A stretch of 22,541 nucleotides of DNA from a virus: positions 1-22,541 of IMG/VR virus record IMGVR_UViG_3300030090_006763; one strand, written 5' to 3'. Positions 12-3,920 of this stretch are shown one piece after another. Under the pieces are notes generated by a model. The model was not told where the DNA came from and ran no database searches. It saw only the letters and a list, made by a program, of their open reading frames with translations. How positions within the stretch are numbered: the first letter of the stretch is position 1; each line of letters begins with the position of its first letter. A program made the translations under genes and the position numbers.

Positions 12-329
12 ATGGAGCCGGAAAAATCCCTACTTAAAGAGTTCCTCCAAGGAGGTTGGGTCGTGCCTTTAATCGGCGCCGGCGCCATGCTCGCTCGTTT
101 ATTGTCAGGTGAAAATAATTACACATGGTGGCAACAACTCAAAAAGATATTTACAGCTGGTCTCTCTGCAGGTATTGCATGGTTTATTTTAGAGCAAACA
201 GAAATATCTTCTCTTTATAAAGCTGTTACATATGGTATTATCGGTGTTATCTCCCCTGAGGTAATTGCTGGTATTGTTAAACTAGGTAAAAAATTTGCAG
301 ATAACCCTGAGAAGGTGCTTAAAAAATGA
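12..329 (+). CDS. Putative holin (LydA-like, holin superfamily III type)
   Basis: A 105-residue membrane protein with about three hydrophobic segments: residues 15-31 (starting GGWVVPLIGAGAM), 46-62 (IFTAGLSAGIAWFIL) and 71-90. It ends in a short, lysine-rich cytoplasmic-type tail (KKFADNPEKVLKK). The glycine/alanine-rich first segment followed by LARLL resembles the LydA holin family, which forms holes in the inner membrane at the end of infection so that the endolysin can reach the peptidoglycan. No endolysin gene is visible in the window. The frame is open to the left edge, so the start is not certain: ATG at 12 is the first possible one, and any promoter lies outside the window. It overlaps the next membrane gene by 4 bases (ATGA), which fits a lysis pair. 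A generic small membrane protein is the alternative. Confidence 0.55.
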   Translation: MEPEKSLLKEFLQGGWVVPLIGAGAMLARLLSGENNYTWWQQLKKIFTAGLSAGIAWFILEQTEISSLYKAVTYGIIGVISPEVIAGIVKLGKKFADNPEKVLKK

Positions 330-565
330 AACCTAGATATTTAGTATATATCCTATCGGCTATCATTTTAGCCTTTGTTGTGAGGGGGTATACTTGCGCA
401 GAAGAAATGAAACTCTCATTAGATGCCATTCAAAATGGAGGAAGTAAAGCAGTTGACTTTAAAGGTCTCTGTACATCAGTTGATGGATTTAAGAGGCATT
501 TATTATTCTCTGGTGTTTTTGCAATAGTTATTGCTGTTTGTTGCAGGTTAAAAGCGCCAAAGTAA
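326..565 (+). CDS. Small two-helix membrane protein, possible lysis accessory protein
   Basis: A 79-residue protein, not recognised as a known family. It has an N-terminal hydrophobic segment (about residues 4-20, after MKPR) and a second one near the C-terminus (about 58-74, starting HLLFSGVFAIVIAV). The roughly 35-residue polar stretch between them holds two of its four cysteines. The first segment could be a signal anchor. It starts inside the stop codon of the holin-like gene (ATGA at 326-329), so translation is probably coupled. A weak purine-rich stretch (GAAGG at 311-315) is the nearest thing to a ribosome binding site. Position and topology suggest a role in lysis such as antiholin or spanin component, but this is inference from context only. 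It has no late-promoter octamer of its own. Confidence 0.5.
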   Translation: MKPRYLVYILSAIILAFVVRGYTCAEEMKLSLDAIQNGGSKAVDFKGLCTSVDGFKRHLLFSGVFAIVIAVCCRLKAPK

Positions 566-577: not shown

Positions 578-2998
578 ATGGGAAAGAAGATTACTCAGCT
601 TAACGCTAATCAATTACCTTACGACGGAAAAGAACTAGTAGCTATTGTTGAAGCAGGTGAAACCCGGGGAGGTACGCTTAGCTCATTTATGAATTACTTG
701 ACCGGTGGGGTTTACAACGCGTTAGGGGGTACGCCTGGTGTTCAGCCAATTGCTTCTCCTCTCAAAAATAATCATTTTCGGTTTACACAGACCATAGCTG
801 CTGATTTAAGCGCTACAGGAAAAATGACTATAGGTTTTGCTAATACCAATACTGGGACTCGATCAACAGTTACCGGTGGATCTACAAATAGCGTAACAGG
901 CAACTGCGCTTTTATTGGAGCGGGGAATAGTAACATAGCGAATGCTAACAATGCTTTTATAGGAGGTGGGTTTAGTAATACGGCGTCCGGAGTATGCGCT
1001 GTTGTAGGAGGTGGTCATGACAATACTGCTAGTAGTACATGTACAACAGTTGGTGGTGGTAGGTCAAATACTAGTGCCGGTACAACAGCCACGGTAGCTG
1101 GGGGAATGCTCAACGTAGCAGACGACGCAAGAGCTTTTGTAGGAGGGGGCGTATGTAATTACTCTACAGCTGCAGATTCTACAGTAGTTGGTGGAGCATG
1201 CTTATCTGCTGCAGCTGTTGAAGCGTTTGCAGGAGGTGGTAGATTAAACGCTGCCTGTGGTGTACAATCTACAGTGGTCGGTGGTCTAAGTAATATAGCA
1301 ACATCTGCTAATGCATTTATTGGTGGTGGTAGTATAAATGCTGTGCATGGATTAAGTGCAGCTGCTGTAGGCGGTCAATTAAACATAGCGAAAGGAATTA
1401 CTTCTTTTGTAGGAGCAGGTCGTTTGAATAAGACTACAGCAGATTATGGAGTAGTAGTAGGAGGTCTCTGTAACTCAGCAACTGCTTTAAGCGCTACAGT
1501 TGTTGGTGGTAAAGGTAATTCTGCTGGAGGTCAAGGTGCTACTGTTGTAGGTGGTTTAGGTAATACAGCTTCACATGATGGTGCTTTTGTAGGAGGTGGG
1601 TTTAGTAATATAGCATGTGCTAATAGAGGTGCTGTTGGAGGTGGATTTAGTAACATTGCTGGAGCTAATTGTTCTGTAGTAGTTGGAGGTGAATGTAATG
1701 ATGTAAATAATTTAGGAAATTGGGGCACTATTGCTGGTGGTTTACGAAATGCAATTCGAGGAGCCGGGGATTGTTCTTTTATAGGCGCAGGATGTGGAAA
1801 CGAAAGCTCTGGAGATGCAGCTGCTATAGTAGGTGGTGAAAAAAATTGCACGTCTAATCATTGTTCTGTAGTAGCTGGAGGTGAGAGTAATTTAGCTGCT
1901 GCAACACGCTCTTTTGTAGGTGCGGGTTTCGGAAATAGAAATAGCGGTTCAAGCTCAGTTATAGGTGGAGGAGATTCAAACTGCATTACTGGTAATCATA
2001 GTGTAGTTGCCGGCGGGCTGAGTGGTTTGACCTGCCAGGAGGGGGATACATTAGCGGGAGGTACAAACAATAGAATATGCGGTTGTTATGGTTATAATGT
2101 TATTGTCGGAGGTCATAGCAATACATTAATTACAAATGCAAGTGGTTCATTTATTGGTGGAGGTAGAGGTAATGTTTCAAATGGTATAAATTCTTTTATA
2201 GGAGGAGGAACACAAAATAGAGTTTGTGCAACTATATGTCAAGCTACTATTGGTGGAGGTGCTCTTAACCAGGTGTGTGCCAATTTTGGTACTATAGGAG
2301 GAGGATTTCAAGTACTAGTAAAAGGCGCATGCGCTACAGTGGGTGGAGGACAGAGAACTGAAGCTTGTGGGATGCATAGTACTATAGGAGGAGGGTGCTG
2401 TAATGAAATAACGAGCGCTGGTTCTTGCGCGACTATCGCCGGGGGGAATGGTAATTGTGCCACCGGAGCTCAATCTTTCATTGGTGGTGGTTGCGGTAAT
2501 CTCACCAGTAGCGATCAGGCGACGGCTGCTGGTGGTCAGGATAATACAGCATCTGCTTGTACAGCAACAGTCATAGGAGGATGTGGAAATACTGCTAGTG
2601 GTGATTTTTCAACTGTAGCAGCGGGTTGCTCAAACACTACTGGAGGCTCTCATTCCTTTATTGGAGGAGGTTCTAGAAATACATCTCCATGTCAATATAG
2701 TACAGTAGGGGGTGGAGATCAAAACTGTGCATGTGGCAACTACGCTCTTATAGGTACAGGTAAAGTGAATAGAATAGTAGCTCATTATGGCTTTATAGGA
2801 TCAGGTCATAATAATACCTTATCAGCAGCTCATGCACATTCAACCATTCTAGGTACTGGTCTGCAATCAGTATCTGCAAATATGCTACACACGGGATTAC
2901 TTCAGCTAAGTGGGTTACCTACATCCGATCCCGGGGTTGGTGGCGTTGTTTGGAATTCAAGTGGTACATTAAAAGTATCTACTTGCCCTAGACCGTAG
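578..2998 (+). CDS. Tail fibre / adhesin with about 40 YadA-head-like GGG-N repeats
   Basis: An 806-residue protein and the likely receptor-binding fibre. Residues 1-95 form a non-repetitive attachment domain. Residues 97-760 are a run of about 16-residue repeats with the pattern [S/T/A]-x-[V/I]-[V/I]-G-G-G-x-x-N-x-A/S, like the left-handed beta-roll head repeats of trimeric adhesins (YadA/Hia type). The last 50 residues carry a typical phage fibre tail of the type 'GLPTSDPGVGG-VW' and end in PRP. About 40 cysteines occur, most within the repeats and often just before the GGG core (for example GNCAFIGAG, GVCAVVGGG), which is unusual for a cytoplasmically assembled fibre. The long repeat array implies an elongated trimer binding a surface polysaccharide or protein. 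It has its own late octamer, and a glycosyltransferase gene follows 31 bases downstream. Which part of the virion it belongs to is inference. Confidence 0.75.
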   Translation: MGKKITQLNANQLPYDGKELVAIVEAGETRGGTLSSFMNYLTGGVYNALGGTPGVQPIASPLKNNHFRFTQTIAADLSATGKMTIGFANTNTGTRSTVTGGSTNSVTGNCAFIGAGNSNIANANNAFIGGGFSNTASGVCAVVGGGHDNTASSTCTTVGGGRSNTSAGTTATVAGGMLNVADDARAFVGGGVCNYSTAADSTVVGGACLSAAAVEAFAGGGRLNAACGVQSTVVGGLSNIATSANAFIGGGSINAVHGLSAAAVGGQLNIAKGITSFVGAGRLNKTTADYGVVVGGLCNSATALSATVVGGKGNSAGGQGATVVGGLGNTASHDGAFVGGGFSNIACANRGAVGGGFSNIAGANCSVVVGGECNDVNNLGNWGTIAGGLRNAIRGAGDCSFIGAGCGNESSGDAAAIVGGEKNCTSNHCSVVAGGESNLAAATRSFVGAGFGNRNSGSSSVIGGGDSNCITGNHSVVAGGLSGLTCQEGDTLAGGTNNRICGCYGYNVIVGGHSNTLITNASGSFIGGGRGNVSNGINSFIGGGTQNRVCATICQATIGGGALNQVCANFGTIGGGFQVLVKGACATVGGGQRTEACGMHSTIGGGCCNEITSAGSCATIAGGNGNCATGAQSFIGGGCGNLTSSDQATAAGGQDNTASACTATVIGGCGNTASGDFSTVAAGCSNTTGGSHSFIGGGSRNTSPCQYSTVGGGDQNCACGNYALIGTGKVNRIVAHYGFIGSGHNNTLSAAHAHSTILGTGLQSVSANMLHTGLLQLSGLPTSDPGVGGVVWNSSGTLKVSTCPRP
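866..2857 (+). repeat. Coding tandem repeat array (about 48-base period, GGG-N protein repeats)
   Basis: About 40 degenerate repeats of roughly 16 codons, each centred on a [V/I]GGG or [V/I]AGG core and an Asn three residues later. DNA identity between units is modest because different glycine and alanine codons are used. The array is therefore old or selected at protein level rather than a recent slippage expansion. Neighbouring units such as those near 1590 and 1640 are the most alike and may be recent duplicates. Confidence 0.8.
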
Positions 2999-3029: not shown

Positions 3030-3920
3030 ATGGCTAGTACTATTTTTCACATTGAAGGAGGCATAGGTAAAAATGTTGCAGCTACTGCAGTAACAGCTGC
3101 TTATAAAAAAACTTACCCCAAGCGTAAAATTATTGTTGTTACAGCTTGGCCAGAAGTTTGGATAAAAAATCCTGATATATTTAGATTCTATCGGATTGGT
3201 AATACTCCTTACTTTTACAAAGATATTATTAAAGATAAAGATGTAGAAATATTTCCTCAAGATCCTTATAAGACTACCGAACACATTACTAAGAAAGGAC
3301 ACCTTATTAAAAATTGGTGCAACATGATAGGTATTAAGCATAAGGGTGAGGCTCCTATTTTAAATTTTAATTTAAGAGAAATGGAAGAAGGTAGAGCATA
3401 CGTTACGCAATTTGCAGATGGTAGACCTACTTTACTCTTTCAGCCATTTGGGGGCCCTGGGCCAGATCACCAGCAACATCCCTACGCATGGTCAAGAGAT
3501 ATACATCCAACAGTAGCTCAAAATTTAGTAAATGCATTACAGCAAAAATATAACATTATTCATATCTGTTATGAATTTCATCCTAAGTTAGATAACTGTC
3601 ATAGATTTGATAGGATAATTGGAAAAAAAGCTTTATTTGCTATGGTAGCTAATTGTGATAAAAGGTTATTTATTGATTCATCTCTACAGCATGCTGCAGC
3701 AGCTTTAAAGCTTAAATCTACTGTTAGTTGGGTAGCTACACAGCCAGAGGTATTTGGGTATAAACTACATGATAATATTAAACCGGTTAAAGAGTATAGA
3801 GATGGTACTATAGATTCGTATCTTTATGATTACGACTTTACTGGAACTATATATCAATGCCCATACAACTCTTTAGAAGAGCTCCATGACGCGCAAGCGA
3901 TGGTAGACTCTATAGGTTAA
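3030..3920 (+). CDS. Glycosyltransferase, GT9/heptosyltransferase-like (GT-B fold)
   Basis: A 296-residue protein. The N-terminal strand-loop HIEGGIGKN (7-15) and the C-terminal block from RLFIDSSLQHAAAAL to SWVATQ (212-238) match the layout of ADP-heptose/GT9 transferases. There, a D-S-x-x-x-H-x-A-A pattern lines the nucleotide-sugar pocket; the key residues here are D216, S217, S218 and H221. Another strand, LLFQPFGG (135-142), starts the second Rossmann domain. The predicted role is transfer of a sugar from an activated donor to a phage structural protein or host surface glycan. Acceptor and donor cannot be read from the sequence. Its position directly after the fibre gene suggests fibre decoration or modification of the receptor. 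It is slightly short for a heptosyltransferase (about 320-350 residues). The gene converges with the neck gene, and their stop codons overlap in TTAA (3917-3920). Confidence 0.55.
   Translation: MASTIFHIEGGIGKNVAATAVTAAYKKTYPKRKIIVVTAWPEVWIKNPDIFRFYRIGNTPYFYKDIIKDKDVEIFPQDPYKTTEHITKKGHLIKNWCNMIGIKHKGEAPILNFNLREMEEGRAYVTQFADGRPTLLFQPFGGPGPDHQQHPYAWSRDIHPTVAQNLVNALQQKYNIIHICYEFHPKLDNCHRFDRIIGKKALFAMVANCDKRLFIDSSLQHAAAALKLKSTVSWVATQPEVFGYKLHDNIKPVKEYRDGTIDSYLYDYDFTGTIYQCPYNSLEELHDAQAMVDSIG

Follow-up and report, generated by a model that had tools for sequence, protein, structure and literature searches.

The question raised by this locus is what a cysteine-rich roll is doing in a phage fibre. 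The window, by which we mean the whole 22,541-nucleotide stretch analyzed (positions 1 to 22,541 of IMG/VR record IMGVR_UViG_3300030090_006763), is part of a 66-kb virus record, in which the terminase and tail sheath genes are of T4 type. The observation of a cysteine-rich fibre is real and general; the result that matters is a two-gene module, and the glycosyltransferase (GT) gene downstream is the best clue to the role of the fibre. The features concerned are as follows.

12 to 329, plus strand: holin-like gene, the conserved neighbour upstream of the fibre (Pfam 4.3e-4, below the cut-off; PHROG holin 9.7e-4; synteny).
326 to 565, plus strand: conserved 79-aa ORF in the gap between holin and fibre, without a family match.
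578 to 2998, plus strand: cysteine-rich beta-roll, putative virion fibre, 806 aa (44 coils; UspA1, 7.6e-20; BpaC head, Z 22.8, residues 88-407).
578 to 856, plus strand: N-terminal part of the fibre, residues 1-93, MGKKITQL...ELVAIVE...TR (49-95% identity in five relatives).
857 to 2878, plus strand: residues 94-767, parsed into 44 coils of 15 aa that contain 33 of the 35 cysteines (cysteine-blind parse and register table).
2785 to 2995, plus strand: final coils with the C-terminal cap, whose terminal motif LPTSDPGVxGxVW..xGxLK[IV]S is common to other phage structural proteins.
3030 to 3920, plus strand: predicted GT9-fold glycosyltransferase, 296 aa, 31 nt past the fibre (Foldseek, VIA, and Pfam GT9 in family members).

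A Viterbi parse in which cysteine carried no weight divides the fibre into 44 coils of exactly 15 residues, with the consensus x x [SA] [TFV] [VI] [GVA] G G x x N x A x G and seven two-residue insertions. The roll was matched by phmmer to the head of UspA1 (3pr7, E 7.6e-20), and an AlphaFold monomer model (16-row alignment, mean pLDDT 78.5, mostly 76-93 in the roll and low across residues 1-93, pTM 0.51) was aligned by VIA to the BpaC head (7o23) across 288 residues (Z 22.8, rmsd 8.8). Plain Foldseek of this model gave no match below 0.001, and UspA1 is absent from the VIA list, which covers Foldseek candidates only. Pfam UspA1_rep was found in 1 of 16 fibre family members, and LbR_Ice_bind reached 15.7 bits on the window fibre, under its curated cut-off of 30. 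Searches of phage records with tblastn found nothing for the window fibre and one weak match for the L008 fibre, with low-complexity masking that may hide relatives in both cases. The UspA1 and BpaC heads have the same 15-aa GGG..N repeat and left-handed parallel beta-roll, but the window fibre carries surface cysteines and gives no match to the C-terminal membrane anchor of trimeric autotransporter adhesins, having phage-type termini, including the C-terminus, instead; UspA1 has no cysteine within the stretches that phmmer aligned to it. The product of ORF 578-2998 is a YadA/UspA1-type (trimeric-adhesin-type) beta-roll in a phage protein with phage-type termini, and is probably a left-handed beta-roll trimer. 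Because of its conserved N-terminal part and the cap motif common to phage proteins, we read it as a likely virion fibre, of which residues 1-93 are presumed to serve virion attachment. The preliminary description had placed a YadA-like beta-roll of about 40 GGG-N repeats in a phage fibre at 866-2857. The fold stands on the UspA1 and BpaC matches and the roll (857-2878) takes up that interval, but the gene is larger (578-2998, 806 aa), and the repeat array, real as it is, counts 44 coils and only 18 literal GGG.

Cysteine makes up 4.34% of this protein (35 of 806 residues, 33 of them within coils), against 0.82% in 21 other ORFs of the window (54 of 6567 residues; binomial P 5e-15). The sheath and tube of the same phage have 4 cysteines in 795 residues and 1 in 180, and the fibre and the 79-aa ORF are the only cysteine-rich proteins among those of the window that were checked. 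Within the coil, cysteines fall at positions 2 (8), 14 (8), 9 (5), 10 (5), 12 (4), 1 (2) and 15 (1), with none at positions 3-8, 11 and 13. The same pattern holds across 14 family members including the window (540 coils), where cysteine takes 11, 15, 18, 15, 19, 17 and 5% at positions 1, 2, 9, 10, 12, 14 and 15, and the remaining eight positions hold 2 cysteines altogether. An independent DNA-pattern search yielded 109 viral rolls (3942 coils), in which these seven positions again take nearly all cysteines. They are the variable positions of the coil, and the roll fold suggests that they point outwards and are exposed. All nine cysteine motifs quoted beforehand occur in the fibre, and cysteine-richness is a family trait, with 30-70 cysteines in each relative of 747-820 aa. 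The count of about 40 was right as to richness and high as to number (35 over the whole protein and 34 in the stated interval 866-2857, which is residues 97-760); the register flanking the hydrophobic-GGG core is real but broader than described, positions 12 and 14 having been missed.

Regular spacing had been taken to suggest cysteine ladders that form disulfides or bind metal. Pairing was assessed by shuffling cysteines among coils within each register. Same-register pairs in successive coils numbered 71 against 80.9 expected in the 14 family members, while 72 distinct rolls from viruses gave 247 against 221, a ratio of 1.12, so that the two sets differ in sign; any pair of cysteines in neighbouring coils gave a ratio of 1.06 in the 72 rolls. 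Pairs within one coil numbered 204 against 234 expected (14 members) and 472 against 511 (72 rolls). Several in-chain neighbour pairs are depleted in the 72 rolls (positions 1-2, ratio 0.30; 10-12, 0.56; 14 to the next 1, 0.38), and therefore there is no signature of disulfide pairs. Ladders and disulfide pairs thus found no support in these shuffles of either set. At a distance of two coils, same-register pairs exceed expectation in both sets (99 against 75.5 in the 14 members, 229 against 194.6 in the 72 rolls), which may reflect repeat history or regional composition. Mutual repulsion of glycans was also considered and would be expected to cause avoidance along the stack if every cysteine bore a bulky group; cysteines in the same register of adjacent coils are not avoided (72 rolls), and so do not look spaced to make room for large glycans.

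Oxidation in seawater could still harden the fibre through disulfides, formed either inside one trimer or from fibre to fibre, while the GT acts elsewhere, for example on host LPS. We regard this as quite unlikely to be the whole explanation. A precedent exists in Agrobacterium phage Milano, for which the available text of PMC10811340 describes cysteines forming disulfides across sheath, tube and baseplate, structural proteins with 2.1% cysteine, and disulfides that block contraction; the exposed positions of the roll would likewise be accessible to oxidation. Both phages have cysteine-rich tail parts, but in the window phage, among the proteins checked, cysteine is abundant only in the fibre and the 79-aa ORF, and the sheath (4/795) and tube (1/180) are cysteine-poor. 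Several pairs of cysteines close together in the chain are rarer than expected, stacked pairs reach a ratio of just 1.12, and the number of cysteines is odd in 8 of 14 family members, all of which argue against hardening by disulfides alone. So does the lack of a glutaredoxin in the window's record and of a thioredoxin in the four records searched, all of which may be fragments, and the link between GT and cysteine described below would go unexplained.

Metal binding fares worse. Surface cysteines might ligate Fe, Zn or Cu for stability or for host recognition, as in the Trojan-horse idea of iron in tail fibres. Such binding has been proposed for marine phage fibres with HxH motifs, and the motif is linked to iron in T4 gp37, in the available text of PMC11705849. 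The 806-aa fibre has two CxC, one CC and one HxH, so that the suggestion of metal-binding cysteines finds no clustered ligands, and in-chain neighbours are depleted. Repeated HxH motifs of the iron-binding fibre type do not occur in the window fibre; its single HAH (residues 752-754) lies in the C-terminal cap and is retained in some relatives. We consider this the least supported reading and a very improbable one.

The gene at 3030-3920 is shown by its predicted structure to encode a GT9-fold glycosyltransferase. The model (pLDDT 79.1, pTM 0.78) matched the GT9 protein 3tov (9.5e-9), WaaC (6.6e-8) and TibC (4.8e-5) in Foldseek, with VIA Z scores of 19.4 for the GT9 protein, 17.0 for WaaC, 16.9 for heptosyltransferase II (1psw) and 15.7 for TibC. 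Pfam Glyco_transf_9 was detected in 9 of 19 GT family members (best E 3.8e-4), the window's own copy being without a match. A single profile alignment with WaaC/WaaF in hhalign (E 2.5e-5, probability 75%) sets the D-S...H motif of the GT against the D-T-G..H of these LPS heptosyltransferases. We take the catalytic base of WaaC to be D13. In the same alignment (probability 75%), the G-D pair of WaaC is replaced by an invariant G-K in the GT family, with Lys in 31 of 31 rows, and the catalytic Asp of the WaaC D13/TibC D110 site is absent. Asp-110 is given as the catalytic base of TibC in the available text of the TibC paper.

This gene is coupled to the fibre. It was found in 15 of 15 records searched, and close relatives share the order holin, 79-aa ORF, fibre, GT and head-closure gene (reverse), with the length and N-terminus of the fibre varying. 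A scan of viral contigs with the GT profile gave 561 relatives, of which the best 80 loci were analyzed; in 73 of these 80, a fibre-type ORF lies 31-151 nt upstream of the GT. Nearly all of these upstream ORFs have a fibre-type end (the motif or a variant) and, wherever the sequence reaches far enough upstream, a start of the KI[ST].L type. Five of the other seven loci have too little upstream DNA, and two share one fibre about 850 nt away. Bacterial and archaeal genomes scanned with the same profile gave a sole match, a Bacteroidetes MAG contig (L072) in which a roll ORF with 16 cysteines in 657 residues precedes the GT by 1.4 kb. By eye, that contig also has a secreted-type protein.

The presence of the GT goes with cysteine. 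Among 66 distinct GT-linked upstream ORFs of at least 100 aa, which include near-identical sequences, cysteine content is 2.86-8.67% (median 5.25), compared with 0-1.53% (median 0) in 27 GT-less fibres with the same C-terminal cap motif (p 3e-14). The association extends beyond the roll, since 18 of the 66 have fewer than 8 coils and still contain 2.86-6.12% cysteine; between these 18 and the 27 GT-less fibres cysteine rises 16.7-fold and every other residue changes 0.41-1.54-fold, Ser (11.3% of the GT-linked non-roll fibres) by 1.18-fold and Thr (11.2%) by 0.99-fold. All 120 cap-motif stretches together gave 35 GT-less fibres, 25 of them without any cysteine, and a single GT-linked fibre with 17 cysteines in 375 residues, after stretches were dropped that were not C-terminal (34), were under 100 aa (32), lacked a preceding P (12) or ran off the end (6). 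A control within one genome is offered by the contig of L007, which also encodes a 1273-aa GT-less cap-motif protein with 11 cysteines (0.9%); cysteine-richness is therefore not genome-wide.

Roll figures in the comparison that gave the sets of 66 and 27 came from 80 of 120 stretches; the roll set was then redone on all 120, keeping the 109 with at least 8 coils and dropping the other 11. Scored per record and not by adjacency, coil cysteine under 1.5% was seen in 0 of 60 rolls from GT-bearing records and in 17 of 49 from others (p 2e-7), or in 0 of 60 and 7 of 29 when GT-less records were limited to those of at least 30 kb (p 2e-4). GT-bearing and GT-less fibres differ in lineage, and the p-values for GT and cysteine ignore kinship. 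Many GT-less rolls are cysteine-rich all the same: 32 out of 49 reach 1.5% or more in the coils, and 22 of these 32 come from records at least 30 kb long. A Pfam scan of six ORFs downstream of cysteine-rich GT-less rolls gave no glycosyltransferase match.

Named phages repeat the arrangement. Pelagiphages HTVC111P and HTVC112P encode YadA-type fibres with 12 cysteines in 811 residues and 14 in 756, respectively; the very next gene in each is GT9-like and carries the annotation "putative glycosyl transferase". The three other structural proteins that were checked have 0-0.4% cysteine. Their GT copies match the GT profile at 8e-27 and 9e-28 for the pair, and the HTVC112P copy scores just past the Pfam GT9 cut-off. 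The gene pair is that of the window, but these fibres are of another repeat type with an S74 chaperone end and fewer cysteines, and their GT is distant. Among 18 named YadA-type records, again scored per record, the five with a GT have 3.01, 1.85, 1.48, 1.10 and 0.51% cysteine in the fibre, the last value, from P-SSM5, measured on one of two CDSs that seemingly split one gene; the 13 without a GT have 0-1.38% (p 0.01). In AG-345-L05 the GT lies about 15 kb from the cysteine-rich fibre, and the nearest large ORF upstream of the GT has 1.0% cysteine. This single-cell genome (MH319754.1, Marine virus AG-345-L05, Kyanoviridae) encodes at about 104093-111566 (L397) a 2491-aa YadA-type protein of NNVFIG..AG repeats with 75 cysteines, and its GT9-like gene, within locus L059 (118618-135439), sits amid ORFs that by eye resemble other glycosyltransferases, a sulfotransferase, oxygenases and a carbamoyltransferase. 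Distant GT9-like matches (2.8e-17) were also seen in the cultured cyanophages P-SSM2 (AY939844.2, 235291-236025) and P-SSM5 (HQ632825.1, 103352-104086), a few kilobases past the cluster of tail-fibre genes. In the open-access literature, no paper was found on cysteine-rich phage beta-rolls or their GT9 neighbours.

Conservation of cysteine positions among relatives, proposed in the preliminary description as a check, proved strong in one pair and weak in four. In the diverged part of the L003 fibre, aligned with cysteine masked, 18 of 26 cysteines are kept compared with 45 of 168 other residues, where register frequencies predict 5.3 kept cysteines; 7 of these 18 show a synonymous codon change between window and L003. 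Four other pairs give a small excess (OR 1.39, p 0.09), and so the family trait is cysteine-richness at variable positions, the exact sites drifting. The window and L003 fibres are 89-96% identical over the first 225 residues, 34-71% per 75 residues thereafter and 75% at the end, with nearly equal length and conserved flanking genes; the divergent stretch is a hypervariable block, perhaps produced by recombination. The same cassette houses fibres of 553-558 aa with the N-terminus MA[IV]KISQLPVG in seven other loci (L048, L049, L055, L104 and L108-L110), which suggests exchange of fibre modules while the neighbouring genes stay in place.

It is improbable, in our judgement, that the cysteines have no function, exposed sites merely tolerating them under a lineage bias and the GT link reflecting shared ancestry or local gene order. 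The drift of sites between most relatives (OR 1.39, p 0.09) and the frequent cysteine-richness of rolls without a detectable GT speak for this reading, but the retention between window and L003 (18/26 against 45/168, 7 of the 18 with a synonymous change), the cysteine-poor state of other window proteins, and the recurrence of the association in named pelagiphages, cyanophages and non-roll fibres speak against it.

We propose that fibre and GT form a two-gene host-recognition module in which the enzyme glycosylates the fibre and cysteine is the likely acceptor, a reading that we put a little short of an even chance. Its parts differ in strength. The enzyme would probably modify the fibre, by analogy with TibC/AAH, which act likewise on beta-helix adhesins. 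That the acceptor is mainly cysteine, giving an S-linked sugar, is a more tentative suggestion; cysteine is favoured because it alone is enriched with the GT, lies only at variable, presumably exposed positions, and forms neither pairs nor ladders. In the proposed mechanism, the inward residues of the roll would be held fixed while the outward residues vary fast; the GT9-fold enzyme would act in the cytoplasm, before the tail is assembled or while this happens, and attach sugar to the fibre surface; surface cysteines would be the acceptors; and the resulting glycan coat, on a fibre of the roll or another type, would serve host recognition or protection. A thiol acceptor might dispense with the Asp base. 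The full picture, in which fibres of marine and other phages are S-glycosylated by a phage-encoded GT9-fold enzyme that has Lys where the catalytic Asp would usually stand, acting on outward cysteines to build a fast-changing glycan coat, is possible but doubtful.

The main rival, which we hold to be rather unlikely, is that the GT sugars Ser, Thr or Asn and the surface cysteines are put to another use, such as cross-linking and hardening the fibre by oxidation after lysis. The relative TibC heptosylates Ser of beta-helix adhesins (available text of PMC4358343), the tails of Milano show that many disulfides are possible (available text of PMC10811340), and Ser (11.3%) and Thr (11.2%) are abundant in GT-linked non-roll fibres. 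Yet Ser and Thr change 1.18- and 0.99-fold with the GT where cysteine rises 16.7-fold, and the cysteines show no pairing signal.

Glycosylation of the fibre, the reading preferred here, brings the module close to the bacterial autotransporter heptosyltransferases (BAHT) TibC/AAH, where an adhesin-like repeat protein likewise has its dedicated GT9-fold enzyme next door (TibC matches the window GT with Z 15.7). The window GT, of phage lineage, differs in aligning only from TibC residue 96 on, the N-terminal barrel going unmatched, and the iron finger of four cysteines described for TibC (available text of PMC4358343) has no counterpart in its 296 residues, where five cysteines are spread at 97, 180, 190, 209 and 277. 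The module resembles known adhesin-plus-glycosyltransferase pairs, but the features that were tested do not make it a BAHT.

If the proposal is true, a large group of environmental phages would carry a dedicated enzyme that decorates the receptor-binding fibre, a phage counterpart of TibC-TibA. S-linked sugars, which to our knowledge have been described in small bacteriocins and few proteins besides, would then possibly occur on phage fibres as well. With two cultured pelagiphages carrying the gene pair (HTVC111P and HTVC112P), the proposal is testable now. Were it borne out, it would explain the cysteine-richness of these fibres and would alter how contacts between fibre and receptor are modelled from sequence.
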